Assembly: GCA_027604185.1 (NCBI GenBank)
Contig: JADGKB010000082.1
Location: 1-63,793, forward strand
Length of the DNA stretch: 63,793 bases
Direction of reading: 5' to 3'
Source: Boothiomyces macroporosus
Lineage: Eukaryota > Chytridiomycota > Chytridiomycetes > Rhizophydiales > Terramycetaceae
The position numbers and the translations under genes are program-made. Positions 1,907-63,645 of the stretch are shown here, piece by piece; position 1 is the stretch's first letter, and the number at the start of each line of letters is the position of its first letter. Below the pieces are notes generated by a model that did not search any database, had not been told where the DNA came from, and saw only the letters and a list, made by a program, of their open reading frames with translations.

Positions 1907-3978
1907 ATGTTCGCCTGTCGGTATGGAGAAAATTGCTACAGGATAAACATGAACCACTTGCAGGATTTTGAACATCCAGTTTCTGTTTACATGTCCAGAA
2001 CGGCAGTCATTTATGATTCAAATACGGATGAATTTTTGTGGAAAGCGCATTGCAAAGACCGAGAGCAGTGTACGGATACTAGTGAATTGCATTTGCAAAA
2101 GTACTGGCATGCAGGAGATGACTGTTTAGATCCTAATGAGGGGATACTTAAATATGTTAGCCAAATCAAGGATAGAAAGTATCAGACAGAACAAGACCCT
2201 GTAAATATGAGTGATTTACAAATTCTAGGAAACTCAACAAAAACTGGAAAGGAATTGAAATTGTTGAAGGAGCTCGCATTAAAAACAGTTGCACAAGCAA
2301 TTAACGAAAGCCCATTGGATTATGTTGATTATTTTAAAGATATTTCCTCGGAAATTGCGAATAGTTACTTTCCACTGTTGACTTATTCCACTATGGAGAA
2401 ACTAGTTGAAGCAAATGCATTTGACTGGCTAGGCAATGAAAAGTCATATTACGAACATCATCAGAATTTAGAAAATCGTTACAGGTCAATGTTTGTGTCT
2501 GACCGTGAAAATAAGGCATTGGAGGACCCTTGTTTGATGATGGGTAGCGTCTTTATCGGCTACGAAACAAAAGCATTTGTACCAAAAGAAACTGATACAC
2601 TGTTGCTGGAAAGTCCTTTTCATCCAGGCAGTGCCTTTGCATCAAAAGAGCTTTTTAAAAAGCAGTGGCATCATTTGACTGGTGGAGTATTTCAAGATAT
2701 TGACTTGAACAACTTGTTTTTTGCAGGAGGTGCTGTTTTAGCTGCTTTACAACCGTTTGATCCATCAAAAGATATCAATGAGCAGTTGATCGAAAAGGGT
2801 TATTATAATTCCGACATTGATATCTTTGTTTATGGTATTTCTGATCCAGAAGAAGCTACCGAAAGGGTGCAGAAATTTTGTGAGGATATCCAAACACAAG
2901 TTGATGATGTTTTATTTGTCAGAAACCACAATACGTTAACTATAGTTAGAGAATATCCGCTCAGACAAATCCAGGTTATATTTCGATTGTACAAATCTCC
3001 AAGCGAAATTCTGATGGGATTTGACATTGACTGTTGTTGCGTGGGCTATGATGGGAATGATGTCTATGGTATTCCTAGATTTTTTGGGGCTGTTACATAC
3101 CAAAGAAATGTAGTCGATCTATCTAGGAGATCCCCAAGTTATGAATACAGATTGTACAAGTACTCTAAAAGAGGGTTTGGGGTTTTGATAAAAGACAGAA
3201 AGATAGACATTGAAGAAATAGATATGGATGTCGATGAGCTTTATGGTTTACCCAAGCTAGTGGATTTATCAGAGGGCGGAGCTACCGAGTTGCACCGTAG
3301 ATACAAAGGCGGTAAAATTCCAAAAGCGAGTTCCTCAGAAAGTCCAAGTGAAGAAGCGGCAAGAATACAACGTAATTTTCACTAAAAATAGAGGAGCTGA
3401 AAATTGCCAAAGTCAAAAAAGAGTGTATAGATTGTGATGAGTACATCAAAATGGTGTCGGGACAGCCTTTTGAAATTAGAAACAAAAGACATAAGGGTGG
3501 TCTCCTTCCAGACAGTAGGGTTACAGAAATCATTGATATTGACCGTTATGTAGAGAGTAACTCTTTTGCATATTCCAACTATATGACAATCAAGATTCCG
3601 TATTCTGCTAATTGGAGTTTGGCAAGAATTGAGGAACTAATTGTCAATGTTAACAAAAAATTCTTGAATTGTCAAACTTATGGTACACTCCAATTTTTGT
3701 CGTTTGCAACAGCTCAAATGGATGACAATGAAGATATTTCAGATATATTTATACCTGATTGCATAGAAATAGCTCGCTTTTCTGAAGATGTTTTTGAATC
3801 CAATTTATCATTCGTAGCAGTTATCGATGGACGTGAATGTATTTCCGAATATTCGCCCGATGAATGCTGGTTGATTGATAATCCTGGACAGCAAATGCTT
3901 ACTGGTAGTTTCGAACCTATCCAATCCGAAATTGATGACTGGATTACGGGCAAATCACCATACGATGAAGACGAATAA
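1907..3978 (+). CDS. tandem-PBZ zinc finger protein with nucleotidyltransferase-like domain, copy A
   Basis: Two exons joined by a 20-nt intron at 3372-3391 give 683 aa. Residues 4-23 and 49-68 each fit the PBZ spacing C-x5-C-x6-H-x5-H exactly; the first reads CRYGENC...NMNH...H. PBZ fingers bind poly(ADP-ribose) in DNA-repair proteins such as APLF and CHFR. Near residue 273 there is FFAGGAV and near 300 NSDIDIF, the GG...DxD arrangement of nucleotidyltransferase-fold enzymes, followed by a conserved FDIDCCCVGYDG block and RRSPSYEYRL. The C-terminal exon carries another conserved block ending in DECWLIDNPGQQMLTGSF. Activity is not established; poly(ADP-ribose) binding is inferred from the zinc-finger spacing. 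It is a tandem duplicate of the gene at 4231. Confidence 0.8.
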
Positions 3979-4230
3979 AATCATTGCATAAACACTTGAT
4001 ATGAGGATTGCAATTAATAAGATGGCTCCCGCGGATTATAAATATCCTTTCTATCAGAGTGATTCTATAACGACTGCAAAGAAACGCGTCACATACTAGC
4101 TTTCTGAATTTCATGTACTGCTAAATTAAATCTTTGGAGCTTTTATCTCGGCTAGTCATGTTCAATTTGGGTGATGGCTCTTTGGTGAACTAACTGTGCC
4201 ACTAGTCCAAAGAGTTTTGCAAATCTCAAA

Positions 4231-6286
4231 ATGGCCGAATGCAGATATGGAGCAAATTGTAGAAGAATCAACATGGACCACCTCAAAGAACTCAAACATC
4301 CAATTTCTGTGTACATGTCTCGTACGGCTGTAGTACATGATGATCAAAAGGATGAATTCAACTGTATTCCACATTGCAAGGATAAAGATAGTTGTCAAAA
4401 TAGTAACCCAAAGCACCTCAAAAACTATTGGCATCCGGGTGACGAGTGTGTTGATGTTGGAGAGGTATTGGAAAACGCTGCCGAGCAGATGCGAGGTAAG
4501 CAATTACAGACTACTCAACCACCTATGTGTATGGACGACTTGAAAATCAGCTTAAACGACAATAACACTGGTGTAAACGATGCAGCTTCATTCAAATCCC
4601 TAAAGGAAATTTCAATGGCCAAAGTCGCCAAGTCCATTAACGAAAACCCGTTAGATTACGTTGAATATTTCCAAAACATGTCGGAAGAAATTGCGAAAAC
4701 TTATTTCAAGCTATTGACTTTTCATGCGCTTGAACAACTAGCTGCAGCGAATGCATTCGAGTGGTGGAGTTCAAACGATTCACTAGTAGATTACTGTATG
4801 GCACAAGAAAACAAATACCGTGAAATGTTTGTTAATGATCGAGACAATGAGGAGCTCAAAGATCCTTATTTGATGATGAGCAGTGTCTTTGTAGGGTACG
4901 AAACAAAGCATTTACCAGAATCTCAAAGTGACACATTACTGCTTGCAACTGATTTTGAAGAAGGTCCAGCTTTTGCCTCACGAGAATTGTTCAGGAAACA
5001 ATGGTACCATATCACTGGAGGTGTTTTTGAAAATGTAGATTTGTCAAACCTGTTCTTTGCTGGCGGGGCAGTTTTGGCTGCTCTTCAACCGTTTGACTCA
5101 ACAAAGGATATCAATGAACAGATGATTGAAAGGGGTTATTACAACTCCGATATTGATATATTCGTCCACGGAATTGAGGATACCGTGGTTGCTACAGAAA
5201 GAATCAAAAAGTTTTGTGAAGATATACAGACAAAGACTGGGAATAATCTCCTATTCGTTAGGAATCGCAATTCACTGACAATTGTACGTGAATTCCCTCT
5301 TCGCCAAATTCAAGTGATATTCAGACTCTACCATTCGCCTAGTGAAGTTTTGCTTGGGTTTGACATTGATTGCTGCTGTGTTGGGTATGACGGAAAGGAA
5401 GTGTACGGCATCCCACGTTTCTTTGGAGCAATTACTTATCAAAGGAATCTTGTCGATGTAACAAGAAGATCCCCCAGCTACGAATACCGTTTGTACAAGT
5501 ATTCCAAAAGAGGTTTTGGAGTACTTATTCGTGGCAAGAAAATTGAACTTCCAACTATTAACGAAGAAGATGAAGGTTCACTCAGTGGTCTCCCTAGATT
5601 GGCCTCCTTGTCCAAAGGATGGTCAAAGAAATTGTATCCCCGCTACGAAGAGGATGAAGACGAACAGAGTGAAGCGGAAATAAGCGATAACTCAGACTTG
5701 CAAAGTAATCATACTTAATTTAGAAAAAAGAAAGATTAGCAACATGAAAAAAAGCCCAATTACATTTGATGATTTCGTTAAACTTGCCCAAGGTGACTTG
5801 AATGTGATCAATTATAAAATCGGTCGAGGATCGCTCCTCCCTGACATGCGAACAACCGAAATAATTGATATCGACAGATATACTGAAGTTAATTCATTCA
5901 AGTATTCAAACTACATGACAATCAAAATTCCTTATTCAGCCAACTGGACTTTGTCAAGAATCAAGAACTTTGTTCAATATCTTAACCAAGCTTTTAGCAT
6001 GAATCACAACTATGGTTCTTTTATGGACATGGAATTTACAACCATACTCTCTGGCGGGGATGAGGATTTCTATGACATTCCAAATTGTGTAGAAATCGTG
6101 GATTCTGCTGATAAGGTGTTGCAAGAGGACTTGGGGTGCGTTGTTGTTGAAAACGACAAGGAGCTGTTGTCCAAATACTCACCAGATGAATGCTGGTTGG
6201 TGGATAACCCAGGACAGCAAATGCTGACTGGGAGTTTCCAACCAATATTTTCAGATATGGAGTCTTGGATAAGTGGGTCCGCCTAA
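4231..6286 (+). CDS. tandem-PBZ zinc finger protein with nucleotidyltransferase-like domain, copy B
   Basis: Paralogue of the preceding gene in direct orientation, 678 aa after removal of a 19-nt intron at 5705-5723, which sits at the equivalent position. It keeps both PBZ fingers (CRYGANC...MDH...H and CKDKDSC...KH...H), the FFAGGAV and NSDIDIF motifs and the DECWLVDNPGQQMLTGSF C-terminal block. Divergence is spread through the linkers, especially after the zinc fingers, so this is an old duplication without recent homogenisation. The conserved acidic residues argue that any nucleotidyltransferase-type activity is retained in both copies. The gap of about 250 bp between the genes holds no recognisable feature. 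Confidence 0.8.
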
Positions 6287-6460
6287 GCAACTGATATGAA
6301 TAAATCTCCGATGTTTAGCAGTTATTCTAACCAAATATTGTCAGTTTGGGACATAATACAGACTGCAGCTCAATCCGCTTCATTAATGCGGCTGTATAAT
6401 ATTGCACCCATCCAGTCTCTTTGGTTTCCACTCAATGGATAGCGGTTGGCCCGAAATTCG

Positions 6461-7359: not shown

Positions 7360-7387
7360 TCGTATAGTAATAATAATAAAAAGCCAA

Positions 7388-10258
7388 TTATAATATTTTT
7401 ATTGTATTGGTGTTGTTTGAGCAAATAGGGCAGGATAGTTCTTTGAGCTTGAACATCTGGCTTGGCTGTTTTTGTAACGGAATCATGTACTTGTCCGTTC
7501 TTTTAGAATACACGGAGGCAATAGCTCTATCATTACCTGACACTTTGGATTTTTCAAATGAAGTATCAGTCTCTATTTCCGTTTCGAATGTCATATTGAT
7601 ACAATTTGCATGAAAGTAATGATGACAAAAGAACACAACTAGGTTATCTGATTCCCGAGTTATTGGTTCGTCACAGATAGAGCATGGGGCATCTGGTGAT
7701 ATCTTTATACCTCTTCTCTGTTTGTTGTTTAGTTGGGTAAACGAGTCCCACGAATCTGATAAAAGGATCTTTTCGCATCCTTTCTGAAGCGATGTCTATA
7801 TTAATAAAGAATACTTGAACGCTACAGTCAGTCATTACTCGCATAAGCGCCTTCTTCAATCCCGGGATAGGCAATTGCAATGGAATCCGTTCTATTACCT
7901 TTAATGGTGATATATGGTTGCCTAAATTCTCAAGAATACCAACAATAAATGCTAGATTAAATAGAATAGATACGTGGTTTATCCATGGCATAATTCAGAA
8001 ATTCTTCCCACAAGGAGCTGTCATTGTGTTCTTTGGCAAACTCAATTGCTAAATTTACATCCCCCACTCTCTCGATAATCAGCATTAATGCTTTGCGATT
8101 GTCACCCATCTTGCCGAGCAAGTACATCATTTCAGGAATTAAATCACGCTGTTCACATAATTCATATGCCTATGTTAAAGCAGAGCTACTTTTGGATATG
8201 AATAATTAGAACTAGTTCGTAGGAAATCAATTAGTCTTGGAGGATCAAAGTCTGCATACAACTCAACTTGTAATTCATGATATGCAGAGCCTTCCAGGTG
8301 GTCTTTAAGGAATAGAGCATCCAAATATACATGTAAAAATTCTCTGCTTTTGTCCAATGCTTTCACAGCTACAGAAGGAGGTACGTGATCTGTATGCTCT
8401 ACAAGCAATTGAATTCCTTTCGAGCCAACAAGGGCCCTGACATGTTTGATGGCATCAGACGCGTTGTGGTTCAATGAAATTGGGATAGTTGCAAATGGAT
8501 TCGAACTGTTTTCAATTTCATGCCTTGTTAGCTATAAATTACTTTGAATAGTTGATGATCAAAAAAATATTGTCGTGTAAAAATGCAAGCAGATTTTGTT
8601 CCATAATTAAATCAATCTGGCCAGGAATGTTCAGCTTCATTGCATAATATATTGCTCGATCGGTCTGATGATCATGGTTAAAACTAATTAATGAATAGTT
8701 ACAGTTTAACAAGAATTTCATAGATGAGATCTGGGCTATTGCTTTTCTTTAGCAATAATTCCACTGTCTTGATTACAGTCTTGATATTGTAAATGTGAGG
8801 CGGCCAGATTGATACCAGCTCCAACAAACTCTTCAAGTCAGAGTTGATGTAATCATTGATAATCAATTCGTAGATTGAGGAATTCAATTGAGGGTTTGCA
8901 ACCGGAAGTACTTTGTAAATGAAACCAAGTTGTCTAGCTTCAGCAAACTGATAGACCCAGCTTTCCCAAAGTTGAGCGTTAGTTCCTAATACTTTTGAGC
9001 ACACTACTGCAGCACCTTCATAATCCTTGGCATCCATCAGTGATTTTAAATACTTTTGCCCAATATTTAAAGTCAATTCGTCAGCATCTCGTTCTACCAT
9101 TTCTTTTTTGTGTTCATCAACCAAGTCGAGTGCTTCTTGATAGTTCTCCAAAGATATCAGCCATTCAATATGGTCCTTAATATCCCTTGGCTTTGCCACT
9201 ATTATATCTTTCGGTGAGCTAATGTAATAAGTAACATCAGATATAGTATCAGATGCCAAATACTCTGCCATCAAATATTTCTTACCTAATCTGTAATCGT
9301 TGGCTTGATAGTTTTCAAATCCTCCAATAGATAAGACATCATTGGCAACTTCTAATCCATCCAGCCCTACAATATGTATCTCTGGCGGAGAAGAGGTTTT
9401 TCTGTTCAAGAACACATCCAAAACGTCAGTATTTTCGTCAAGAGCGTTTGTAATAAAGCTCAATAATAGAATATCATCCTGAAATGGTGCAATACCAGCA
9501 ACTACAAACTCTGTTCGAAATTGGTGAGTGACTAGAACGTATTTTGGGGACAGACCAGAGTTTTTATCCATCGCAGACCTCTCTTTGATTGATATAATCT
9601 TTACAGTATCTGCCCAACCAATGAAAAATTCTTCAGAGTTTTTCCAGCATATATTGCATCTATATGGATCACCTCTTGGGCTATGGCTTTTTTCTATGGT
9701 TGCGAATTTCAGGGAAGATGTAATATCGTAAACATTGGTCCCTTTATCATTAGCCCAGACAATATAATTTCCATTCCAAGAAAGAGCAGATATTGATCCC
9801 TCCCCAGAGTGCAACACCGTTTGAGTATTTCCAAACCATCCTTTTCCAGTCATAGTCAGCGATCCGGCAATACCCCCAGAAACTAACTGTCTTGAGCTCT
9901 TTTTCCCGTATTCTGGCTCTAATGCGACTCCAAATATCGGCCGCTTGTAATTAAAACTGTAATTTTCAGTCGAGTAGAGAGAGTTGACGATAACGTTGCC
10001 GTCACCACTCGCTGATGCTATAAATTCTCCTGTTGAATCGATACTAATATGGTTTACTGACTGTGTATGCGACTGCCATCTCTTTACTGGTGTTCCGATC
10101 AGATCTATCAATTGCACTGCTCCTTGAAGCGTTCCGATAGCAAGAAACCGATCGGATACTGACAAGCATGTTATTGAGTCCTTTTGAAATTCTTCAGAAT
10201 CAAATGCGAGTCTGGAATATTTTAACTTTGGCTCTTCAGCAACACTTGATTCAGACAT
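7388..10258 (-). CDS. VPS41: VPS41-like HOPS complex subunit
   Basis: The N-terminal half (from the ATG at 10258) is a WD40-like beta-propeller beginning after a short acidic leader, with SVSDRFLAIGTLQGAVQLID and repeated ISIDSTGEFIASASGDGNV blades typical of VPS41. The middle is alpha-solenoid (clathrin-heavy-chain-like repeat). The C-terminus is a RING-H2 zinc finger: C-S-I-C...FFCHHYFHANC...CPIC. At least five introns of about 18-20 nt interrupt the second half, for example gtaactattcattaattag and gtataaagatatcaccag. VPS41 acts in the HOPS tether for vacuole and lysosome fusion with Rab7/Ypt7. The upstream TTG codon in frame is not a plausible start. The 3' end converges on the DUF1769 gene. 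Confidence 0.9.
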
Positions 10259-10317: not shown

Positions 10318-11042
10318 TTAATTAGAACCTTTGGAGAATTTAGAAGACAAATTCTTGGCGTCGTTCAAGATGTCATCTCTTGATTTGGTATCCATTCTTC
10401 TCCCAACAATATCCCGCTCCCTGTCAAACCGCTTATGGCTCAGATCATCCGCCTTGTAAGATTTACTTTTGTACATGTTTTCTTGGAATTCCTCCAACAA
10501 GGATTTTGGCTTTTCCTCCCGCTCCTCCTCCTTTGGCTTCTTTTTTGGAGCAGCATCTACTATTGGCTTGCGTTTCTACATTTAAATTGAGTTTACGGTT
10601 TCCGCCAATCTGCGTTCCCTTTCCTGCGGTGTTTCCGTCCAAGATACATCCACAGTAGTAGATTCAACTCCGCGACGACTAAACGTTTTCGATTTTTGTT
10701 CTAATCCAACTATATCAGTGAAATTTACTTTGTGCTCTCTTTGCTTCAGGAGGAACTAACATCCAATCTTCCCGTTTTGACTTTGTCTCGACTGGCACCG
10801 GTTTATTTATTGGTTTGCTGGCTCTGTTTTCGATCGCTGCTATTTTGGCTTGTAACTCTTGCTCTTTTAATGTCTACAAGTTGGTCCAAGTTTACCTTTT
10901 CATCAACGTCTGGCAACACTGGTCCATAGTCATCATCACTCTCGCTTTCTTCTACTGGCGTTTCCGGTTTAGCTGCTCTGATCGTCTTTGACTCTCTTTG
11001 CTTTTGCAAGTGAGGAGGAAGTGATGGTCCAAACCTTTCCAT
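10318..11042 (-). CDS. GPALPP motif / DUF3752 protein (GPALPP1-like)
   Basis: Starts MERFGPSLPPHLQ, followed by an acidic DDDYGPVLP, both versions of the GPALPP motif. After removal of three introns (22, 19 and 21 nt) it continues through REDWMLVPPE and ends in the DUF3752 signature with LLEEFQ, a basic helix, FDRERDIVGRRMD and DILNDAKNLSSKFSKG. Total 220 aa. The family is conserved from fungi to animals and is suspected to work near RNA processing; no biochemical function is certain. The intron assignments are well supported because each restores the conserved frame. Its start codon lies 7 bp from the start codon of the divergent GatC-like gene. Confidence 0.85.
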
Positions 11043-18218: not shown

Positions 18219-19333
18219 CTACGAAAGACATCCTGGGCAGTTATGAAGTACTTCATGTATATACTGCTCGCAATCAGCACAAAACACATTTTGACATTTC
18301 CTACATTGAAAGTTACTGCTAGATTTGCAACAAAAGCAAGATCCTTCGCCATTGACAAAGCTAGCAACTGGAAATAGATGGTGGTAAGATCTAGACAAAC
18401 TTGGTGAACTAACCAGGGTTAGCAAACATACTGGGCAGTCTCTTGGTATTTCGCAAACAATGATTTTACATCTGGGGCATTTATGTCCGCTTGTAATCAT
18501 TTTTAAATGACTCGTTAATTAACAGTTACCATGCACATACTATATCTTTTACTTGTATAGTATTAGGGAATCCCATCTGAATCATCTGTGATTTAGTAAT
18601 CAAAGGTGGTGGTGGGATGGTATTAAATAGTAAATCTCTGTAATGCCCTTGGTTTTGAACAACTGTAAATGTACCACCAGTAGCTTTACAAATCATTTCG
18701 CATATATGCATTTGGGCGGATAAGTTGATAATTGATACTCTAATACTATCACTCTTTAATTTATCAATTGTTTGGTTCAAGTCATCTGGATCGCACGTAT
18801 TTAAGGCACCATAAAGGACTAGGATTTCTCTAGATACGTGATTCGGGACTGTAATTAACGCTTGCCTAGCTAATTCAAGACTGTTTTGCAAACTTGGTTC
18901 TCCACTAGGTGTGTATCTTACAGAAACTATTTTGTTTAATGCAGCTGGTGAGGCCAACCAGTCACTCAACCTTTCAGCTAATCCATCTTTTGTTGCTAAT
19001 AATAGGATTGAAGAAAGAGGGTTCTGATCCAAGAATTCTGTAAAATAAGATGAAAGTAGAGTAAGGGTATGATCCAACCTGTTCGGTCTCAAATCCAACT
19101 CTGCCATTGTTCTATATTAATAGATAGTACCTGGAGCAATCGATGACGATGACTAATTGCCTAATAATTCCACGTTGCACTGCCATATCAATCCTATTCG
19201 TCTTTTTCTTTTTAAGAGCCATGACTGATTTCAGTATGGATCCATTCTCATCCTCTTTAAGCACATCCCAGGATCGTTTATACTGCTCTTCCCATGCATA
19301 ATTATTTGTTTTCTGTTCCTCGTCGTCTTCCAT
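18219..19333 (-). CDS. SSL1: TFIIH subunit p44/SSL1
   Basis: Two 19-nt introns (gtactatctattaatatag, gtaactgttaattaacgag) give 358 aa. The order is acidic N-terminus with the W-E-x-x-Y-x-R-S-W motif, von Willebrand-A-like domain beginning QLVIVIDCSR(T)MAELDLRPNR, the ATGGTF segment, then the C4 zinc finger (CHLKMITSGHKCPRCK, with a conserved LSRSYHHLFP) and the C-terminal RING-like zinc domain (CFCC...CRKCQNVFCADCEQYIHE...CPGC). SSL1/p44 activates the XPD helicase within TFIIH for transcription initiation and nucleotide-excision repair. All family landmarks are intact. Confidence 0.95.
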
Positions 19334-21112: not shown

Positions 21113-22668
<1,556 letters not shown>

Positions 22669-40859: not shown

Positions 40860-43800
40860 TTACACAATAGGGTAATCCTGCGAATTACTTTTTACTAGGA
40901 CGTCTCTAGAGTTTACTGTCGGTCTGCTCAGCTCATCTATAGAGTCTGTCAATTCGCAATCTGGGAGCGCTGAAGGAGTCCTAGATCGCAGCACTTTTAA
41001 TGAAGCAGAGTCCTTCTCTCCCGTATCTTTAAGTGTAACTGTTGGTCTACCAAAATCATCATCAAGGTCAATCTGCAAACTAACGTTACTCCTATCCAAG
41101 TGTGAATTTAGGGTGATGGTGGGTCGTCCGATTTCTCTTAATGAATTTAATTCGTCATCATCAAGCATCTCTTCGTCTGTAGATGTATTAGATGCCTGTG
41201 ATTCCCTAATTGGTAAGTCTGACACCCAATCTGAAACTCTATTCTCTTTCCATTCGGATACACGTTCATGGGTAGGCACTCTTTCAATACTGGGCTCTGA
41301 TAGCTGCTCTTGCCAATCTGAAACATTGCTTGGCTGTCTGCGAGGTGGTAGCGCTGGTGGATTTTGTGGAAGAGTCTCTTTTCTACTCTGAGGAATATTC
41401 TTCAAATGCTGTTCATAGATTGTGATTACTCTAATCAATCTAGAAATAATTCGCTGTAATTCTTCTTGATCAGAACTGTGTTAGCAAAGAATACCTGTCA
41501 ACTAGTTGCTCTTCGTCACAAGCCTTCAACAGAATCAAGTTTTGTTCGTGCAAATTATGAATGGCTCTTTCTACTTGAGAGTATCTTTGACTTGACAGAT
41601 GAGAAGCTTCGTACATGTCAATCACTCTTGTAACTTGCTCTAATCGCTCTTCAAGTAAATCTCTTCGCTGATCATCAGATGAGAATACAGGTACTTCAGA
41701 AGCGTCTGTTTTCTGAAAACCTTTCCATTTCAACTTCATCCATTTGGTAAAATCTTGCTTTCCTTTCTATATTAATTTGTATTACCATTGCTGCTATTCT
41801 TGCTCTATTTACTAACTCGTTGGTATGAGAACGCATCATTTGTAAATCCGCTTCGGTTAGCAACTGCTGAGGTGTTCGAGGTTGTACTTCATATACAGAC
41901 TTCCATTCAAATACATCTACGGAATAATAGTTGTCTTTTTTAGTATCAAGTACCTGTTGGCAAATCATCTTGATTTACAGGCATAGCCATTATTGTGCTA
42001 CTAATCTGATACGTTTGTTCATTCAAGAACGGTGTGGTCTCTTTAGTGAATCGCATTTTGGATCTGTTCAATTTCTGCTTTATACTTTCATCAAAAAACA
42101 AGACTTGGTAGTCAGTTTCAGGTCTCTCAATTCTATCCAATACAAACTGTGCAAACGCTTGCGTTTCTACCACTATACTCATAAACGCCTGAGTTAATGA
42201 TTATTACTCTAGTCTCAGAATCAAACTCTGACAAGAATTCTGCTTTTTTAAAGAAATTGTCTGTTCCCGTATCTGAATTATTGCTTCCCAATTTCTTTTC
42301 ATCCGGGAAATTCAAATTATGCCGGTAGTTTTTCAATAAGGATGTGAGCACTTTAAAGAATGCTACAGCAATCTTTTCATCTTGAAAAGTGAGAGGGCAA
42401 GGACTAGCATCTGTTAGAACCATACAATCTTGATGGCAAATGAGATGGCAACCTTGATTAGATTCTATTTACTTTGGCACATTAATACTGTACATGACTT
42501 TGGGTTGTATTCCGTAACACAGAGATGGCACTCTAATCTATTGGTTTTTTTAATTCTTTCGGCTTTAGCATGTGTACTGGTATCAGTTCTTCGTCTAAAC
42601 AATTCTTTCGATGCTCCTCTTTGCTGTCCGGGCACCCTTTTTGGGGGACCATACCTTGGGTCTGCGACTTGACTGACGTCCGATCTTGAGTTTCCATCTG
42701 ATGAATCAGAATTAGTTGTAAATCGATCCGCATAATCGTCGTCATTTTCATCTTCTTCATCAATATCAACTTCTCGCACTTCATTTAAAATCAATTCATG
42801 GAAAATATGGCCTTCTTTGTAAATCAATGGTGCTTCGATTGGTGATATTGTTAATGGTTCGTTTGTAGGAACGGCTTTTGAATTTAAAATTCCATTATAA
42901 TTTTCAATGCTTATTGATGGTGTGTGTTGCGCTGGTGTTTGTAATATTGAAGATTTTTTACTAGACATTGCCATGAATTTATCAAATATACTTATTCGCG
43001 GTTTTTCATCTACACTTGGGGAAGCTGCTACTGATTGCGTGTTTGTTGTACTCTACCGTTAATTCTAATTACTCTGCTCCACCAGTTTGGTTTGGAAAAG
43101 AACGCGGAGGATGGAGTTGGTGGTATTTCCTGTTTCGGCTCATCGTTTGCTGCCTTTGCAAATTTTTGAGGATTTTTCATTACTGATTGCAAAGAGTATA
43201 CGGACTCTTCAGATGGTGTTTCTAGTGTCAACATCAATTACCAGATGGCACACTACTTTCTAAAACGGACGCTCTTGGCGTAGCAACAAAAGATCCTACT
43301 GATAATGCCAGCGATGGGTTTTCATTCAAACTAGTGTTGATTGATAATTTTGTTATTGGAGGTGCTGCAACTGAAGGCACGCTATCAAGTTGTGTGTTTG
43401 ATGCCATATTTACATTATCAAATGATTGAATTATCATTGAAGAAGATGCTGCAATTGAATTCGAGTTGAGTGTTGAAGACCCAGCGGTCTTTGCTGAGGG
43501 AGCGCGTAAATGTCCAATCGCTGCTCTCGATTTTTCATGTAAAAATGGATTGCTGTATATTGAATACAGCAATTTCGGTATATCTCTAATCTTTCGTCTT
43601 CCAATTATTGAGTTTGCTGATTTTATAAAGTGTTTATCCTGTGGAAAAGTACATTTCATTGTTTCTGGAACTCCAAGGTTTTTATATGATGGTGAAGTTG
43701 CAGTGTTGGATTTACCACTATACTTTTCCAATATTGAAATCAATTTCCGTCGTTCTCTTCCAGGCAATTTTACTTTTAATGGAGCAAAATCCAGAACATC

Positions 43801-45133
43801 GTTGTCGATGTCTACTACTGCAGCCTAATTTAAAATTTGATTACATCTGGCGGTCTCCATTCCGCAGTTTTCCATTCTGGAAAAGATTTCTTTTGGATGC
43901 CGACCAAGAATGGAACTGGTGCTTGTAGGTAGTTTAGCAATCTTTTTGGAAGTACAGGGATTAAAATATGGTGCCAATAAAATGGATATAGCCATCCGCA
44001 TATTATTTCGCAACTTAGAGTCAGCATTGAAGAGTGGTCTGATAGTAGTATGACTTTTACATCCATCATCAACAATTCAAACAAGGTAACAATATGCTCT
44101 AATGACATACACCTAAATAGCGGATAACAGGAATACTTGGTTAGTCTCAATGTACATTTTTAACTAGTGGGATGGTATTTACAGGTGGTCTATGTATGTA
44201 CAAAACGTAATCCGCAATTGATATTCCTACTTCTAATTTTCCAGGAGGTGGTAAAGGCACCTCATACAACAAATTTATCACACATCTGGATTAGCTTACT
44301 ACAACCTTTCGAACGCAAATCTCTCAAATTCCCCATCACGGCAATTCTTTAGCATTATACACAACCAATCTTTCAAAAAGTCGTACCATGGCCATCTGCT
44401 TAATATTCCAATACATGTAGGCAAGTAAATATTGTCTAATTGAGCAAGAACACTGTGACGCAAAGGCGACATTAATTCCTCCAACAATCCAATATTCTCT
44501 TCTGCTAGCGCAGCAGATTCTTTACTTGAATCTTCAATCCCCATTTTCAGTTTTAATAGTCTCTCTTTCTGCACTGCAAGTTGTGTTTGTACATGTTGCG
44601 CAAACTCATAGTCAGACTCTACCAGATTCCGATTCCTCCAGTCAGTAATCAAATCATCCAATTGCTTGGACTGCTCCTTGGTCGGCGACACGTATGTAGT
44701 AACACAAACGCCATACGATTTTGACCCGTCAGCCTCTGTTGTAATCTTGGTTAATTATCGCTTACAAATGAATGAAATGTATCTTTGGGTTTTTCAGTTT
44801 CTTGACTTACAAATGTAACATCATTTGGAAAGCAAAACTATATTAAATCAATGATACAAGTGGAGTGTAAACTGGGAATTTGCAATTGTCGCCATAATCT
44901 TCTTTTGGATATCTGAATATGGTCTCTGGTTCGTATCGATAGTGCAGCGGATGTATTTCCTTTATTTTTCTTGTAGGATCCAGAATTTCTTTTACTTGCT
45001 CCACAGGCTCAGGATTATCTTCTATTTTGTCTACCACTCTTTTCGCTGTTAAATTTGATTCAGGTCCAAGACCAACTCGAAAGTAATAATCTGCAAATCT
45101 GATTACTCCTGGCGAATCCTGTATGTTGTCCAT
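40860..45133 (-). CDS. DENN (AEX-3) domain protein with C1 zinc domain, putative Rab GEF
   Basis: A large multi-exon gene, about 1300 aa. The N-terminus from the ATG at 45133 is uDENN-like (VIRFADYYFRVGLG), continuing across 20-nt introns into FCFPNDVTF and YGVCVTTYVSP. The core DENN domain lies at about 43830-44150 (LFRCMSLEHIVTLFELLMMD, VILLSDH, YLQAPVPFLVGI). A Ser-rich linker is followed by a C1 (phorbol ester/DAG-type) finger: ECHLC...CQSCHLICHQDC...C, itself split by a 20-nt intron. Then a dDENN-like block (DRIERPETDYQVLFFDESI, then TPFL) and a repetitive acidic tail with several RPT(V/I)TL motifs. DENN proteins exchange nucleotides on Rab GTPases; C1 suggests recruitment to lipid membranes. 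Confidence 0.8.
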
Positions 45134-45186
45134 TTGAATGTAAAGATATTTTTGTTTGCTTTTTTGGTGACGTGTTTTCTTCAGAT

Positions 45187-46008
45187 ATGCGAACAGAACG
45201 TTCCGAATCATACCGCCTGAGACACGATGGGATTGGAACAGTTAAATTACCTTTTGATATAAATCAAAATAGCCCGCAAAATATTGAAAGAGGGAACCAG
45301 AGATTGAACGCCTCTTTGGCCTTCAGATTGCGCAAATATACGTGAGTTGACAACTAACCTAGGCCACTATGTTTGCAAGCAATTAAATCAGACAACCCTA
45401 ATGACGATCCAGATCATGAATACAACGATTCTATTATTGGGAATGCTGTCTACTCTGCTAGTTCTGTGCAAAAAAGAACCAACACCCCAAGCAGGCCTCG
45501 CATAGAGGTACACCAAATTAACCAGCAGGAAATCCCAATCCCAACGACTGTTAATGAGCAAATAGAAGATATAGACGATAAATCAGACTTTCACGGCAAT
45601 CACGAGGGTACCCATTTATAACAGCAGATGCGACCTCTTTAGACGTTTCTACTCAAAAGCGTTTTCTTAGTAAAGCACAGTTGTTGCTTCGCCAATCGCC
45701 TACCAGAACAAAAAAGGTGCGTCAAGCTAATTTAGGACGCAATTGACCGTGAAAGAATGCTGCAAAAGAATAGCAAAGTGGTAACAAAGTACGACGACAT
45801 TCGCAAAATCTTGGGCTGGGGTCCATCTTTAGGTACCCAAAGGGATGTAGTTGACCAGGCACACACATATAGATATTTAACAGTCCCATTGGCAAAACCA
45901 CGATTGCGAAATATCACACGAGGAGGTAAGCCAACTGGAGTAGTGGTGATTACAAACAGCAAATCGCCATTTCCTAAAATCGAGCTTCCGCCTGTTAATT
46001 TATACTGA
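45187..46008 (+). CDS. hypothetical protein (254 aa)
   Basis: Four exons joined by introns of 21 (gtgagttgacaactaacctag), 17 (gtacccatttataacag) and 19 nt (gtgcgtcaagctaatttag) make a continuous frame from the ATG at 45187. The middle is disordered and acidic. The C-terminal half is compact (KVVTKYDDIRKILGWGPSLG, YRYLTVPLAKPRLRNITRGG) and looks like a folded domain, but I do not recognise it. It is divergent from the DENN gene, with only 53 bp between start codons. The 17-nt intron has a second AG three bases downstream, so one residue could be alternatively included. Confidence 0.6.
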
Positions 46009-46044: not shown

Positions 46045-47170
46045 TTATTTCTGTAAAAGATACTCTTCTATGAGCGAGACGGTCTTTTCAATAGCTTCTC
46101 TCGAAACTTGGTGGTGACATACAAATCTCATTGCTGTTGATCCGCCACCTAATACTTTGATTCCATGAGGTGCAAGTAGATCCATAATATCCTGAGCAGT
46201 AACTTGATACTTTTTAAAGTCCACCCAAACCATATTTGTCTCTGTTGGAATAGTAATGGACAGTCCAAGTCTTTCAAATTCTTTGGACAAACATGCAGCG
46301 TTTGCATGGTCGACTTCCAAATTCTTTAGGTGATTGTTCAATACAAATAAGCAAGCCGTTGCTAAACCACCAGCTTGCCTCCAACCACCACCAAACACTT
46401 TACGGAAATGTCTAGCTTTCTTGATGAATTCCTTGGATCCAACGAGCACAGATCCAATTGGAGCTCCCAATCCTTTAGAAAAACAAAGAGACACAGAATC
46501 GAATGGAGAGCAGGCTTCTTTGAGTGACTGACCATTCTTGACAATAGCATTCCAGAGTCTTGCTCCATCTAAATGCATTTTAACTCCATTTGCGTGGGCA
46601 AGGTTGGAAATTTTGACTTGCTCTTCAAACGGAAATACCTATATTAACACCTAGTACCCTTCCAGCTAAAGTGTTTTCAAGACAGACCAATTTAGTCGGA
46701 GCATGGTGAACATCATCATCCAAAATCCAATTCTTTTCAATCAATTCAGCAGTCAAGTGGGACCCATCAGGTTGCATCAATGGAATAACCATTGCTGAAG
46801 AGTGAAATGCAATGCCACCAGCTTCGTGTGAATTAACATGGGCTCTAGTATCACAAACAACACTATATGGCGGCTGTAAAAGGTGGGTTCTGATTGCCAA
46901 TTGATTCGTCATAGTCCCGGATGCACAAAATAATCCAGCTTCCTTTCCAGCTAGTTGCGCAACTGTATCCTGAAGTAGATGAATACTAGGGTCGTCCTAA
47001 ATTAGTTTTTGCTGTACGTCAAACACATCGTCACCAACATCCGCAGCAGCAATAATTTTGCTCATTTCAGCTGTTGGCTTGGTGACAGTATCGCTTCTGA
47101 AATCCGCAATAGTCCTAACAAGTGTATTTGATGGCTTGGTGGTAATGTTGTAGCTGAATTTATCGACCAT
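46045..47170 (-). CDS. GLY1: low-specificity L-threonine aldolase, intron-containing copy
   Basis: PLP-dependent fold-type I enzyme, 361 aa after removal of 19-nt (gtactaggtgttaatatag) and 21-nt (gtacagcaaaaactaatttag) introns. Motifs: [11 protein letters not shown] at the N-terminus, [44 protein letters not shown], and the PLP lysine in [17 protein letters not shown], then [15 protein letters not shown]. The enzyme cleaves threonine to glycine and acetaldehyde and is the main glycine source in many fungi. It has no obvious mitochondrial leader. A second, intronless copy lies at 49923. Confidence 0.93.
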
Positions 47171-51323: not shown

Positions 51324-52260
51324 ATGATCTTATCGCCTGTGTACGTACTACTGTTCTTTATATCGTACTATGCTATTCCTACCCAACCACCTCCCTACCA
51401 GCGTGACCCTTCAGATATACCTACTGTAACGACATATTTCAAGTATTCGCTTGCTGCTTGTAAGATGTGCTAACATAGATTGCCAATCAATTTATCCCTC
51501 AAACAGTTTCAACTGCACTAACTGCCATGATTACCAAATTCAACAAACCACTGTGTATGGCTCTAACCTGGATTCAGCAACAACTGGCTTTGGATATGTA
51601 GCTAGAAACAATGCGACAAACACAATTATAATCGCGTTTCGAGGGACATTGGAATTCCAATCTTTCGTTGAAGACTTGAAGTTTTGGCAAGTAGATCCAT
51701 CATGGAAGCTTGCTTCACCACGTTTTATAAACTCAAATCCAAAAGGAATACAAATTCATGATGGGTTTCAGGAGACTTATCTAGAAATCCGGGAAACGAT
51801 CCTTTCAGCTGCATTCCACTTGGCAATGGCCCATCCGCAGGATGCCATTATTTTCACTGGTCATTCGATGGGCGGCGCGTTAGCTCTATTTGCTGCGATA
51901 GATTTCGATGACCGTTGGGGAATGCAAGAACGGTTTTCGATTTATACCTATGGTTTGCCTCGATCCGGTAATGCAGATTGGGCACAATATGTTGGAGGGC
52001 TATCTTTTCATGATAGGATTTATCGGTACTCGAACAAAGGTGATTTTGGTATCTGCTCGCTAATCATAGTTCCCCATCTCCCCTTTATGTTTCTTGGCTA
52101 TCGTCATGTGGGACAGGAGTATCAGATACAAGATTCAGGAACTCTTTCAAAATGTGTAGACGCTCCAGGAGAAGATGAAAGTCCGGCTTGTCTAAATGAC
52201 TTTTATGAATTGAATTACTTTAAACACACTTATTATTTTGGTGAGCATACCGATTGCTGA
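51324..52260 (+). CDS. secreted class 3 lipase, copy 1 (298 aa)
   Basis: Two introns of 19 (gtaagatgtgctaacatag) and 21 nt (gtatctgctcgctaatcatag). Signal peptide VYVLLFFISYYAIP, then the mature alpha/beta-hydrolase: SLAAYC, a Cys-rich strand, IIIAFRGT (oxyanion strand), the nucleophile elbow TGHSMGGALA with catalytic Ser, IYTYGLPRSGN, the catalytic Asp in the GDFVPHLPF segment and a C-terminal H in YFKHTYYFG. Same family as Rhizomucor lipase and feruloyl esterase. The second intron is in frame and stop-free, so retention would insert seven residues next to the catalytic Asp. First of three tandem lipases. Confidence 0.9.
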
Positions 52261-52463: not shown

Positions 52464-53397
52464 ATGTGGTCTTTTATTGCAATATTCGCGCTATTTGTCA
52501 AAGCTCAGTCACAGATACTGGTGCCTAATAGCTTCCCGTTATATCTACAATACTCTGTTGCTTCATGTAGATTTTAATTAACGCAGATTGCCAAGAGATC
52601 TTTAACAACCATAATTTCAAATGCGGGAAAGCGTGCAGTGGTCCGCTAACAAACACAGTCTACGGAAACTCCACCTATGATAGCGCAACTACTGGGGCCG
52701 GGTTTGTAACAAGTAACCCAGATCAGCAAAATATTGTGCTGTCATTTAGGGGCACCTACTCCTTCATGTCTGTAATTGAAGACATCAAGGCATGGAAGAC
52801 TCCAGCAGGTAACCAAATATTCACAGAGATTGGTTGGCAAAACCCCCTAGTTTCTTGAATTCTAATTCATCTATTCAAATACACGCTGGGTTTGATGAAA
52901 CCTACAAAGCAATTAAAATCGGATTGCTGGAAAAGGCATTCCAATTAGCTTTAGCCAATCCAACGTATCAAATTGTATTCACTGGCCACTCACTAGGTGT
53001 TCTTTTTTAATCTAGGTGGTGCATTGGCCACGTTTGCTGCAGTTGACTACTTTAACCAGCATGGAATGGGTGATAGGATCTCAATCTACACATATGGCCA
53101 GCCAAGATCAGGTATCTTTCAATTAACTTGGGTAATTTGGCATGGGCAGAATATGTCAGCTCGCTTCCATTCAGTTCAAGAATTCACCGAATTACTAACC
53201 TGGGGGATCCAGTTCCACATCTGCCGTTAAACACTATGGGATACTATCACAACTACCAGCAATATCAGATTTCTAATGGCACTGTAACCATTTGTGTTTC
53301 TGAAGGCAGTGGTGAAAGTCCAAGTTGCATGAATGACTATTTCGAATTGAATGGTTTGAATCACGCCAACTATTTTGGCTGGAATACAAGCTGCTGA
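52464..53397 (+). CDS. secreted class 3 lipase, copy 2 (about 284 aa if a non-canonical intron is spliced)
   Basis: Signal peptide MWSFIAIFALFVKAQ. Four introns are needed: gtagattttaattaacgcag, gtaaccaaatattcacagag, gtgttcttttttaatctag and a fourth at 53112-53131 that starts GT but ends GG. With all four removed the family motifs line up: VLSFRGT, TGHSLGGALA, IYTYGQPRSGN, LGDPVPHLP and a final H-A-N-Y-F-G. If the fourth cannot be spliced, the protein is truncated before the catalytic Asp and His, and the gene would be a pseudogene or a product of sequence error. Confidence 0.75.
53112..53131 (+). other. 20-nt GT-GG intron or broken splice acceptor in lipase 2
   Basis: gtatctttcaattaacttgg has the usual GTA start and a TTAAC branch-like element, but the terminal AG is replaced by GG. 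Removal gives PRSGNLAWAEY, exactly the family sequence, and an integral codon count. No AG in the right frame lies close by. Confidence 0.65.
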
Positions 53398-59400: not shown

Positions 59401-61041
59401 TTAAACACGTTGATCCCAAGGCGAATCATAAAGCGGGTATTTAGGTGGTGGAAACTCAAACGGGATGTCAAACCCAGGTCCCCATCGGAATCCTACAACA
59501 ATCCCAAGTTCATAATTGCTAATTTGAAAATCTCCCTTTTTCAGTGAGTACCCCCAAGCACTTTTAGTACCATTATGACTACCAAGGTACATGTACCCAT
59601 CAACAGGTTCATCCATACTCACAATTTGTATGCTTTGTTGACAGCTCTTGTTTGCAGAATAGATAATGATCTTTGAGTGCATAAGAGCACCTTTGGTTTT
59701 AGATTTTACATCTCGAAGACAGTGTCTAGGGAATTTTTCTGTCCAATATTTCTTGTCGAAAAACAGTGTGCCACCACCGTTTGGTCCGTTTCTGGAGTGG
59801 ATTACGGTGCTCCTAGATGGATACATTAAATAGAGTGGGGCATTCGGGCCCCTAGCACAGCTGTTCTGGAATTCCTTTAGCCACTGCGTTGTAGGGTTAC
59901 CCAAGGATGAAGACTATATTTAAATCCAATTACTTGGCAAACAACAAACGGATCCTGTACATTTTGATACTTTAAACTGCTTACAATCGATGAAAGCCTA
60001 AAATGTCCCCAATTCCACTTTTCCTTCCAATAATGCTTCCCCGGTATCGAAGTAACCAATTTCCCAATAGCACTACGAAAATCATAGTCTTCTAATGTCC
60101 GTACAACACTAATCGGAAATGCCATTGCAACTAGCATTTCAGTAAGTTCAGTGAAAAATTCACACTCTTGCTTGCCAGATTTAGGAAAATCTTGGATATA
60201 CACTATATTTTCAATAACTGCCCAGTCATACTCTATTAAATTCGCACTTGGTATAACTATCCTGATGAAATCTTCAAAGTACAGCAACTGGATTAGTTGG
60301 ATTTACCATGAATTTGCTATGCATTGAACCGTAGGACCCCATTGGGGGGAATACGTAGAGTAAACGCTCACTAACTGCTAATGTAAACTTGTTTTCCGGA
60401 AAATCTTTTGGTCTATGCGTGCATATCACTTTGTTGATATTTCTTGGGACATGTGAAAGTAACCAATCCTCATTTAAACAGAACGACGAAAAGACTGCTT
60501 TCTTCAAGTTTGGACCATCAATTAAATCACTAATAGAGAGGGTTGAAGTGCTATTAGGTACGCGGGTCATTTTAATCACTCCAGAAGCGTATTCCATGTA
60601 TTTAGTATGTTTCTTTGGTCTATTTTCTTCAAGTAGCTGCTCCACTTGCGTTAAAGAGTAATTCAAGTCATCCATATTGATCATTATGTCAGTATAAGTA
60701 AGCGATACTTGGGAATCTTCTTCATTTGATTTCCGTTTGTTCTTTTCGGGTTTGTCTGTTGCTGGATAATCAGGCAGTAAAAGATCTTGAATAGTTAAAG
60801 GTATTTTGCCGTTACTGTTTGACAATAGCTGTTTAATCAATTCAAGTTGGTTCGTTCCTTTTGTATTCGAGTCTGGTTTTTTGGGGTTGATTTTTGTTTC
60901 GCTGATTATTGAAATACCATCGGATTCTTGATCGGAATCGATTGTGATCACTTGAATCGCATTCGGATTAGGGTTAAAACAAATGCTGCACTCTTGGCCG
61001 TCTGCTTGAACCAATGTGCATTTCGGACAGGTCCAAGTCAT
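59401..61041 (-). CDS. TDP1: tyrosyl-DNA phosphodiesterase 1 with N-terminal RanBP2-type zinc finger
   Basis: Introns of 19 (gtaaatccaactaatccag) and 20 nt (gtaattggatttaaatatag) give 533 aa. The N-terminus is a RanBP2/NZF finger: MTWTCPKCTLV...CSICFNPNP. The catalytic domain has both HKD motifs, MHSKFMLLYFED with PSANLIEYDW, and ALMHSKIIIY with YLGSHNGTKSAWG, plus SSSLGNPTTQWLKEF. The first intron interrupts motif 1 directly after HSKFM. TDP1 hydrolyses 3'-phosphotyrosyl links left by topoisomerase I. The added zinc finger could bind ubiquitin or nucleic acid. Confidence 0.93.
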
Positions 61042-61103: not shown

Positions 61104-62642
<1,539 letters not shown>

Positions 62643-62888: not shown

Positions 62889-62983
62889 GAGATATTCGCT
62901 GGTTAATATACGAGATAATTGGTTCATCCATGAGATATTCGTTGGTTAATATACGAGATGATTGGTTCATCTATGAGATATTC
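62889..62983. repeat. 43-bp tandem repeat (about 2.2 copies)
   Basis: Units start at 62889, 62932 and 62975 with gagatattcgctggttaata / gagatattcgttggttaata / gagatattcacc. It lies in the intergenic space between the divergent ATP2 and ATP16 genes. The two full units differ by a few substitutions. Confidence 0.8.
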
Positions 62984-63159
62984 ACCTGCTAGTCCTTTAA
63001 TCTACTGGATAAAGACATGCAATCCGAGATATTAGACATGTGATCTGAAGATGGCTAATCCAAGATCTAAAGACATGAGAAATAAAACCGTCAAGAGATA
63101 TCCATTAATAAAAAACCCTTTTTTCCTATTGACAAAAATTTCTCTTTAATCTGAAAAAA

Positions 63160-63645
63160 ATGATTGCCAGAAGACTGTTAAAGAGTACCCTCATTTAATC
63201 CTAGTTCGTCAATACGCAACCGCTGCTAAACAATTGACAGTAAATTTCGCAGCCCCACACCAAGCATTCCTTACCGGAGCAGAAGTTACCCAAGTCAACT
63301 TGACATCAACTGAAGGAGACTTGGGTATCCTCGTTGGTCACATCCCAACAGTATTGCAATTAAAACCAAGTGTGATTTCATTCATTACTCCAAAAGGAAC
63401 TGAGAAATATTTTGTTTCAGGAGGATTTGCTGCAATCAACCCTGATTCTTCAATGAATATCAATGCAGTTGAAGCTTGCACTTTACAAGAATTGGATTTT
63501 GATGTAATTTATTTTAATGTAGGCGGCAAAGACTGCTTTAGATGCTGCTCAAAAAGCTGCAAAGACTGGTACTGATTTGGAAAAAGCTAGTGCAGAAGTT
63601 GAAGTTGAATTACTGGAAGCTGTACTTGCTGCAAAGAAGGCTTGA
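63160..63645 (+). CDS. ATP16: mitochondrial ATP synthase subunit delta
   Basis: Introns of 20 (gtaccctcatttaatcctag) and 19 nt (gtaatttattttaatgtag) give 148 aa. Short presequence MIARRLLKIRQYATAA, then LTVNFAAPHQAFL, STEGDLGILVGHIPTVLQL, the FVSGGFAAI strand and an Ala-rich helical hairpin (DAAQKAAKTGTDLEKASAEV). This is the F1 central-stalk subunit homologous to bacterial epsilon. It is divergent from ATP2, with about 517 bp between start codons. Confidence 0.95.

Follow-up and report, generated by a model that had tools for sequence, protein, structure and literature searches.

The chytrid fungus Boothiomyces macroporosus carries thousands of gene-interrupting segments of 19–22 nt. Their excess over chance is confirmed and large, and their sequence geometry is almost certainly best explained by U2-type spliceosomal introns that have shrunk to a near-fixed form. 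To our knowledge, introns of about 20 nt are near the shortest known for any organism; tiny introns are best known from reduced genomes and ciliate nuclei, and a 15 Mb fungus lies outside both settings. The window analysed here is a stretch of 63,793 nt, contig C82 of a single draft assembly of 15.2 Mb, and the sample used for frame rescue comprises this window and 18 other 10-kb pieces (243,793 b in total).

A single short length class

Within the window, segments of the form GT[AG]...YTAAY...AG number 26, 24 and 15 at 19, 20 and 21 nt, against means of 7.1, 7.0 and 7.2 in 20 dinucleotide shuffles, and other lengths from 14 to 60 nt depart little from the shuffles (at 27 nt, for example, 13 vs 7.7). 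In the frame-rescue sample, 204 GT...AG segments of 19–21 nt restore an open frame when removed, compared with a flank mean of 81.3; with a GTA donor and a YTRAY branch motif the figures become 93 and 2.3. For 31 other end pairs (15 GT..xx, 15 xx..AG and AT..AC), the excess over the flanks in the same sample never goes beyond z 0.4. When GTA, YTRAY and an open frame extending 90 nt both before and after the segment are required, counts at 18, 19, 20, 21, 22 and 23 nt are 2, 51, 65, 19, 9 and 3, and no count between 11 and 150 nt exceeds 9 outside the 19–22 nt peak. Intron lengths are mainly 19–22 nt with a mode of 20, and this narrow peak below about 25 nt is the main intron class. A few longer introns are also present, such as the first ATP2 intron, probably of 30 nt.

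Genome-wide, a strict pattern gave 6,077 matches, as against 456 when its spacer was lengthened by 20 nt. Because this pattern has low sensitivity (it recovers 53 of 149 motif-selected introns and three of a gene-based list of 31, which includes two TDP1 introns known by motif and frame only), subtracting about 456 from 6,077 gives a rough minimum. Reversed-pattern controls exceed the forward counts outside 19–21 nt, and neighbouring lengths are therefore the better control. Scaling the 74 well-scored window introns described below to the whole genome gives, as a rough figure, about 17,600, and by such rough scaling the class exceeds 10,000 copies. GC–AG variants occur as well (GCAAGT–AG, 81 vs 27 reversed). 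Distinct sequences make up 146 of the 149 introns from the 244 kb sample, which bears on introner elements, that is, families of near-identical introns.

A sequence-only reading of the window had proposed spliceosomal-type introns of this size as a genome-wide and normal class of a fungus-like genome. Dinucleotide-specific frame rescue, the length peak and the genome count bear this out. Its range of 17–22 nt needs amending to mainly 19–22 nt, the lower bound of 17 nt being unsupported: the example placed at 45608-45624 (17 nt) is more plausibly a 20-nt intron, judging from the gene model and the likely branch position.

Introns in the genes of the window

Gene models were built with a model trained on the frame-rescued introns. 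A gene finder based on codon usage, in which intron length was unconstrained, was dropped, having either chained noise into long introns or returned few genes. The trained model over-splices, with many unsupported extras when long introns are allowed; 74 of its 133 candidate introns in the window combine a strong score with a branch motif, and all 74 are of 19–22 nt. Intron borders in DLD and ATP2 were tested independently with a motif-blind spliced aligner run against protein homologues, which itself yields some spurious short introns, in the variable transit peptides and, in a single case (P0021), at the end of ATP2. The introns, with the evidence for each, are as follows.

3372..3391, plus strand: 20 nt; motif and frame
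5705..5723, plus: 19 nt, in a paralog of the preceding gene; motif and frame
7796..7814, minus: VPS41, 19 nt; motif and frame
7952..7973, minus: VPS41, 22 nt; within contiguous Vps41 TPR match
8170..8189, minus: VPS41, 20 nt; within contiguous Vps41 TPR match
8524..8542, minus: VPS41, 19 nt; within contiguous Vps41 TPR match
8684..8702, minus: VPS41, 19 nt; within contiguous Vps41 TPR match
9265..9285, minus: VPS41, 21 nt; within the contiguous match of the spliced protein to the Vps41 beta-propeller
10576..10728, minus: two introns, 21 nt (10576-10596) and 19 nt (10710-10728); motif and frame
18511..18529, minus: SSL1, 19 nt; motif and frame
19112..19130, minus: SSL1, 19 nt; within the match of the spliced protein to the Ssl1 domain
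21153..21173, minus: DLD intron 6, 21 nt; aligner exact, 4/4 homologues
21797..21817, minus: DLD intron 5, 21 nt; aligner exact, 4/4 homologues
22218..22238, minus: DLD intron 4, 21 nt, GC–AG; 21-nt gap in 4/4 homologues, borders exact in one and shifted 1–2 nt in three; in the GC–AG list
22340..22359, minus: DLD intron 3, 20 nt; aligner exact, 4/4 homologues
22496..22515, minus: DLD intron 2, 20 nt; aligner exact, 4/4 homologues
22624..22644, minus: DLD intron 1, 21 nt, in the transit peptide; motif and frame; in public model P0142; not settled by the aligner
23062..24449, plus: three introns (23062-23081, 24215-24234, 24431-24449); motif and frame
26824..30904, minus: ABCC gene A, 12 modelled introns of 20–22 nt (30826-30847, 30659-30679, 30568-30588, 30335-30354, 30030-30051, 29364-29385, 29110-29131, 28701-28720, 28458-28477, 28180-28199, 27730-27751, 27405-27425); positions common to gene B
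31329..35403, minus: ABCC gene B, 12 modelled introns of 20–22 nt (35322-35343, 35154-35175, 35063-35083, 34830-34849, 34526-34546, 33860-33881, 33606-33627, 33197-33216, 32954-32973, 32676-32695, 32226-32247, 31901-31921); paralog comparison with gene A
40084..40102, minus: GLYK-like, 19 nt; gene model; motif CTAAG, outside the strict motif
40860..45211, minus: large gene, 12 modelled introns of 19–20 nt between 41476 and 44857; motif and frame only
45608..45627, plus: 20 nt instead of 17; gene model; putative branch A at 14, followed by 6 nt
46639..46657, minus: threonine aldolase-like, 19 nt; within contiguous Beta_elim_lyase match
46997..47017, minus: threonine aldolase-like, 21 nt; within contiguous Beta_elim_lyase match
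51460..51478, plus: lipase 1, 19 nt; motif and frame
52049..52069, plus: lipase 1, 21 nt; motif and frame
52567..52586, plus: lipase 2, 20 nt; motif and frame
52997..53015, plus: lipase 2, 19 nt; motif and frame
59914..59933, minus: TDP1-like, 20 nt; motif and frame
60288..60306, minus: TDP1-like, 19 nt; motif and frame
62374..62394, minus: ATP2 intron 2, 21 nt; aligner exact, 3/3 homologues
62555..62584, minus: ATP2 intron 1, probably 30 nt; gene model only, three homologues conflicting on borders
63185..63204, plus: ATP16, 20 nt; motif and frame
63504..63522, plus: ATP16, 19 nt; motif and frame

The two ABCC genes have conserved exon lengths though two of their intron pairs differ by 1 nt. 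In SSL1, a further modelled intron (18409-18427) was rejected, as it codes for a conserved zinc finger, seen in the protein and then in a Pfam domain match. Hand-made models of TDP1 and lipase 2 were set aside as wrong, the first for its start and the second beyond exon 4. The examples at 8684-8702 and 21153-21173 given in the sequence-only reading stand; amongst the junctions it named, those of DLD are supported by homology and one in SSL1 by its place inside a Pfam domain, the evidence for TDP1, UBE2W, GLYK and ATP16 being frame and motif only.

Intron geometry and the spliceosome

The donor is GTA with a weak remainder, the intron body is A+T-rich, and the branch motif, which emerged without being asked for, is YTAAY or YTGAY. 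This motif adjoins an NAG acceptor, as had been proposed from the sequence, and there is no space for a polypyrimidine tract. The putative branch A lies 5–6 nt before the intron end and at intron position 14–15, the tail having been measured on introns pre-selected for 4–8 nt after the branch A and the position following from length and tail. As in U2-type introns, the ends are GT–AG (rarely GC–AG) and the branch sequence is able to base-pair with the GUAGUA box of U2. We infer that these segments are spliced, and that the donor would be recognised by U1 and U6 and the branch site by SF1 and U2; the AG adjoining the branch site would then be chosen as acceptor, giving a lariat with a loop of 14–15 nt and a tail of 5–6 nt.

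Canonical U1, U2, U6, SF1, U2AF65, Slu7 and Prp18 are all present in the genome. Both U2 copies retain the GTAGTA box, U1 retains ACTTACCT and U6 retains ACAGAGA; the U1 match is slightly below its cut-off (68.8 vs 69.5) and the by-exon score of U2AF65 is also below cut-off (230.7 vs 310.3). No evident change is seen in any of these seven components, and the visible spliceosome adaptation expected earlier is not supported.

Could the frame breaks instead be assembly indels or signs of gene decay? The assembly is a single draft and the public annotation of these genes is broken, but errors would not yield one length class, GT–AG-only ends and a branch motif; moreover, borders match homologues exactly in motif-blind alignments and both ABCC paralogs have introns at identical places. 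We regard this explanation as next to impossible. That introns here are of ordinary length, the short segments being chance or a small subset, is also highly improbable. Longer candidates do exist, the 30-nt ATP2 segment among them, and public models contain introns of 39, 47 and 298 nt. However, no other length up to 150 nt is prominent, and the long introns of the public models remove conserved residues that the short introns restore.

Most spliceosomal introns are longer than these segments, which might favour another removal route, such as DNA elimination of the ciliate kind, a self-splicing element or RNA cleavage outside the spliceosome. Against this, the GT/GC–AG ends are combined with a branch motif complementary to U2 at a constant distance, and spliceosomal RNAs and factors are found in the genome; a ribozyme, for its part, needs more than 20 nt. 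Such a route is thus very unlikely, and shrunken U2-type introns remain the preferred reading. SF1, U2AF65, Slu7 and Prp18 have been kept despite the lack of room for a polypyrimidine tract and a near-zero distance from branch to acceptor, and the genome therefore offers a test of the need for these factors and of the minimum intron that the spliceosome handles.

There are consequences for annotation. Those public gene models that were checked miss several of the ~20 nt introns and encode truncated proteins, and public B. macroporosus proteins contain deletions, premature stops and false introns. The same faults probably occur in public proteins of Boothiomyces sp. JEL0866 and Terramyces sp. 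JEL0728. Faulty proteins of this kind affect phylogenomics and gene counts of early-diverging fungi.

Probable back-to-back intron arrays

Six supported arrays consist of two to five complete introns arranged head to tail, the AG of one abutting the GT of the next with zero coding sequence between them. An intron-pair pattern gave nine matches, compared with 0 and 0 in reversed controls; six of these represent five arrays (L038, L039 = L040, L042, L045 and L046), whereas the other three, L041, L043 and L044, lack support as arrays. Visual inspection of the strict-pattern genome list added five more candidates, among which L049 is supported, L047 and L051 are ambiguous, L050 is not parsable and L048 fails. 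Two arrays are clear tandem repeats, and the units of L038 are mostly as dissimilar as random introns. Candidate pairs in the 244 kb sample number one at gap 0, four at gap 3 and two at gap 5; since gap-0 pairs are no commoner than those at other gaps, random adjacency is possible in general.

We tentatively suggest that the spliceosome may act as a ruler, efficient only when the branch A lies about 14–15 nt from the donor. Longer insertions would then persist mainly as arrays of unit introns removed serially across zero-length exons, with tandem duplication of a unit as one route of intron gain. If so, the arrays of two to five units in the otherwise intact genes for Rpt1 and for ING-like, METTL2/6-like and BRE-like proteins would be its trace. 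Three of these arrays lie at C137:12034 (Rpt1), C92:40625 (ING-like) and C6:28632 (METTL2/6-like). It is a serious possibility, if one falling short of being probable, that each array is one longer intron, repetitive by chance: open frames do not distinguish a single intron of 38–101 nt from several units. Yet donor, branch motif and acceptor are kept in every unit, even where units are dissimilar (L038), and introns of 38–101 nt are otherwise without excess.

Comparison with known systems

The intron class itself is already known from ciliates, nucleomorphs and mikrocytids. No earlier report of such introns in a chytrid was found in an open-licence literature collection, and the accessible portion of a Rhizophydium paper (PMC13391722) contains nothing about intron length.

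Chlorarachniophyte nucleomorphs (Bigelowiella natans and Lotharella oceanica) have A+T-rich introns with GT–AG and rare GC–AG ends, mostly of 18–23 nt with 19 nt commonest, in remnant genomes of <1 Mb that hold about 1,000 introns (PMC4035089). B. macroporosus shares the ends, similar lengths and A+T richness, but its genome is nuclear and of 15.2 Mb, with a mode of 20 nt, many more introns and canonical snRNAs. Stentor coeruleus has introns of 15–16 nt with the branch A at 10–11 and no strong branch consensus (PMC9505925). Both organisms are free-living and combine narrow lengths, a GTA donor with a loose remainder, conserved U1/U2 boxes and about 5 nt after the branch A; B. macroporosus differs in its 19–22 nt length, branch A at 14–15 and clear YTRAY. 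Paramecium bursaria, also free-living with short U2 introns, has a different length spread (median 24 nt, range 15–100; PMC12862383).

To these precedents, most of which the sequence-only reading had listed, mikrocytids must be added. Their introns (16–17 nt, n = 224; PMC10245619) are likewise short and uniform with conserved motifs, but belong to a parasite with a strongly reduced spliceosome, whereas B. macroporosus has thousands, of 19–22 nt. Encephalitozoon cuniculi, a fungal relative, also has short introns but is a reduced parasite with just 37, ranging over 22–76 nt (PMC3629993). The arrays recall ascomycete stwintrons, in which one intron interrupts a splice element of another (PMC8469720), in that two U2 introns would be removed serially where one is expected. 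Unlike these nested introns, none of the six supported arrays has a splice element of an external intron broken up by an internal one, and the B. macroporosus arrays consist instead of complete introns, up to five, set head to tail.

Short introns as a genome-wide class

Boothiomyces macroporosus belongs to the Chytridiomycota (Rhizophydiales, Terramycetaceae) and its assembly comprises 216 contigs and 15,203,306 bases, contig C82 being the window. The sequence-only reading held that very short GT–AG introns are a normal class in this genome, and counts at three scales bear this out. In the window, GT[AG]...YTAAY...AG segments (YTAAY being the branch motif) lie clearly above shuffled sequence at 19-21 nt, without open frames being required. 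In a 244 kb sample (the window plus 18 other 10-kb pieces of the assembly), GTA...YTAAY...AG occurs 63, 72 and 39 times at 19, 20 and 21 nt, against 7 to 25 at each remaining length between 12 and 80 nt; because a reversed control exceeds the forward count at most of these other lengths, neighbouring lengths are the better control. Genome-wide, GTAAN{5,8}YTAAYN{2,3}AG has 6,077 matches (2,992 and 3,085) against 893 in the reversed control, and the same pattern with a spacer 20 nt longer has 456 (reversed control 767).

We also counted, with no branch motif required, GT...AG segments whose removal connects two open frames at a point where reading without splicing runs into a stop. Counts at 19, 20 and 21 nt are 65, 101 and 38 and clearly exceed both those at adjacent lengths and those for four other end pairs. 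All five pairs show a background that climbs with length, and 10-11 nt is slightly high. A T-A-A branch motif near positions 12-15 emerges unasked from these segments. The signal is specific to GT–AG (204 versus 81.3 in 244 kb), with none of 31 other end pairs tested above z 0.4, and stands at 93 versus 2.3 once GTA and YTRAY are added (tested for 14 pairs).

Intron anatomy

The anatomy comes from 149 introns, 18-23 nt long and chosen because they start with GTA, carry YTRAY 1-5 nt ahead of AG and lie between open frames; 146 of the sequences are distinct. Lengths are 18 nt (2), 19 nt (51), 20 nt (65), 21 nt (19), 22 nt (9) and 23 nt (3), the three phases number 55, 50 and 44, and GC content is 0.304 versus 0.388 in the flanks. 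In 132 of the 149 the putative branch A is nucleotide 14 or 15, and in 125 it is followed by 5 or 6 nt, where selection allowed 4-8, in keeping with the earlier description of a branch motif adjoining the acceptor. Acceptors are TAG (85), CAG (38), AAG (22) and GAG (4). Since +5 is G in just 17 of 149, the donor is not GTAAGT but GTA followed by a loosely defined stretch. GC–AG introns with a GCAAGT donor are also found (81 by genome-wide pattern versus 27 in the reversed control).

Among close pairs of candidates in the 244 kb sample, four are separated by 3 nt and two by 5 nt, a hint of micro-exons, some of which may be chance.

Support from homology and protein domains

Intron borders were placed with a spliced aligner whose score rests on amino-acid similarity and which accepts any borders and lengths from 8 to 150 nt, GT/AG counting solely as a 0.01-point tie-break.

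Introns of DLD and ATP2 placed by homology
22496-22515 (-), DLD intron, exact with 4 of 4 homologs
22340-22359 (-), DLD intron, exact with 4 of 4 homologs
22218-22238 (-), DLD GC–AG intron, 21 nt, a 21-nt gap with 4 of 4 homologs
21797-21817 (-), DLD intron, exact with 4 of 4 homologs
21153-21173 (-), DLD intron, exact with 4 of 4 homologs
62374-62394 (-), ATP2 intron, exact with 3 of 3 homologs

The borders of 22218-22238 are exact with one homolog and shifted by 1-2 nt with three. Both proteins have a variable transit peptide, in which the aligner's short introns are inconsistent, and one homolog yields an extra intron at the end of ATP2. Protein domains point the same way. Unspliced Slu7 matches its profile in two pieces 17 nt apart (1-143 and 143-242; 154.6 + 94.7 bits), whilst the spliced form scores 295.1 bits over 1-253. 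Splicing leaves the Pfam domains of VPS41, SSL1 and threonine aldolase contiguous, with five of six, one of two and both introns, respectively, inside the matches. The earlier proposal that excision restores family motifs is supported by homology for DLD and by a domain match for one of the two SSL1 introns.

In lipase gene 2, removing a 20-nt segment (53112-53131, +) that ends in GG, not AG, would give the best match to the protein of its neighbours; the GG would be an uncommon acceptor or else an error in the base sequence.

Public gene models, relatives and tandem genes

The public proteins for ATP2 (P0001), DLD (P0142) and ABCC (P0242) are truncated or carry deletions because short introns were mis-modelled. 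P0142 has 383 residues versus 484 in the present spliced model. It fits a gene model in which the first 21-nt intron is used, a 298-nt intron then takes out conserved exons, a 39-nt intron replaces the real one of 21 nt and the end falls inside the last intron. P0001 has a false start followed by a 47-nt intron, and P0242 has 905 residues versus 1,275.

Indels in the proteins of relatives suggest that these species may share the trait. Both indels in DLD of Terramyces sp. JEL0728 lie at most 4 residues from B. macroporosus intron positions, what ABCC of Boothiomyces sp. JEL0866 lacks is precisely the exon bounded by introns 3 and 4 (residues 91-162), and three of eight indels in one Terramyces ABCC are near introns. 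Globomyces DLD agrees with the spliced B. macroporosus protein except for one transit-peptide indel.

Two tandem ABCC genes (26824-30904 and 31329-35403, both -) share 12 modelled intron positions. Their second halves are nearly identical, perhaps through either recent gene conversion or duplication, and their first halves about 70% identical. In this divergent half, exons are ~69-75% identical and keep their lengths (146/146, 70/70, 213/213 and 283/283; first exon 57/60), and of the five intron pairs, two show a length difference of 1 nt.

The window holds other tandem genes. The paralogs at 1949-3991 and 4231-6294 (+), the first with a PBZ zinc finger match, have one short intron each near the same place (3372-3391 and 5705-5723). 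Three genes at 54647-59183 (-) encode similar proteins with the look of membrane proteins; a search with the one at 54647-56077 gave no Pfam match.

Splicing machinery

The sequence-only reading had suggested looking for changes in U2 snRNA, SF1 and U2AF2. U2 has two copies, at 142.2 and 135.4 bits, both of which keep GTAGTA; U1 scores 68.8 bits, just below the cut-off of 69.5, and contains ACTTACCT; U6 (62.2 bits) has ACAGAGA. Slu7, Prp18 and the SF1 helix-hairpin are above cut-off, and the SF1 model matches solved SF1 (7vpx) over residues 92-399 with 269 bits. U2AF65 searched exon by exon falls below its family cut-off (230.7 versus 310.3); its spliced model matches solved U2AF65 RRM1-RRM2 with 212 bits, and further matches cover the U2AF59 peptide and the first part of the UHM. 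Among the components searched (U1, U2, U6, Slu7, Prp18, SF1 and U2AF65), no loss was seen and no such change was evident. Yeast work found Slu7 and Prp18 to be dispensable when the branch-to-acceptor distance is short; despite this, both are retained in B. macroporosus.

In the window, ARAGORN found no tRNA; neither there nor in eight other 10-kb pieces did any Rfam match come up to the gathering score of its family.

Probable back-to-back intron arrays

At six loci in the genome, two to five apparently complete introns (units) lie head to tail with zero exon between them; the products of the genes concerned include Rpt1 and ING-like, METTL2/6-like and BRE-like proteins.

Intron arrays, with open frame upstream and downstream once every unit is taken out
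L038, 3 units, 57 nt, open frame 144 and 519 nt
L039, 3 units, 57 nt, open frame 354 and 315 nt
L042, 2 units, 38 nt, open frame 249 and 324 nt
L045, 5 units, 101 nt, open frame 126 and 471 nt
L046, 2 units, 41 nt, open frame 81 and 459 nt
L049, 2 units, 40 nt, open frame 225 and 519 nt

Partial removal always leaves at least one side shorter than full removal does, the best results for L045 being 63 and 471 or 45 and 492. With both units out, L046 (the proteasome ATPase Rpt1) gives a gap-free alignment to solved Rpt1 over the join, which falls at residue 64. In L045 the join lies near 33, within the ING match (residues 11-119), and in L039 it lies near 116, within the BRE match (105-237); for the METTL2/6-like L038, solved relatives begin downstream of the join. 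L039 and L045 consist of tandemly repeated units, and the units of L038 are mostly as dissimilar as random introns. The DNA of an array reads the same whether its putative units leave singly or together.

Comparison with known introns

Searches of open-licence papers by title and abstract showed no report of such introns in a chytrid, which does not prove that none exists. The nearest geometry is that of chlorarachniophyte nucleomorph introns (PMC4035089); those of Stentor (PMC9505925) and mikrocytids (PMC10245619) also resemble it and those of Paramecium bursaria (PMC12862383) do so less, whilst E. cuniculi introns are given as 22-76 nt (PMC3629993). The B. macroporosus introns are best placed as a known intron class in the setting of an unreduced fungus, and the tandem arrays are their most novel part.
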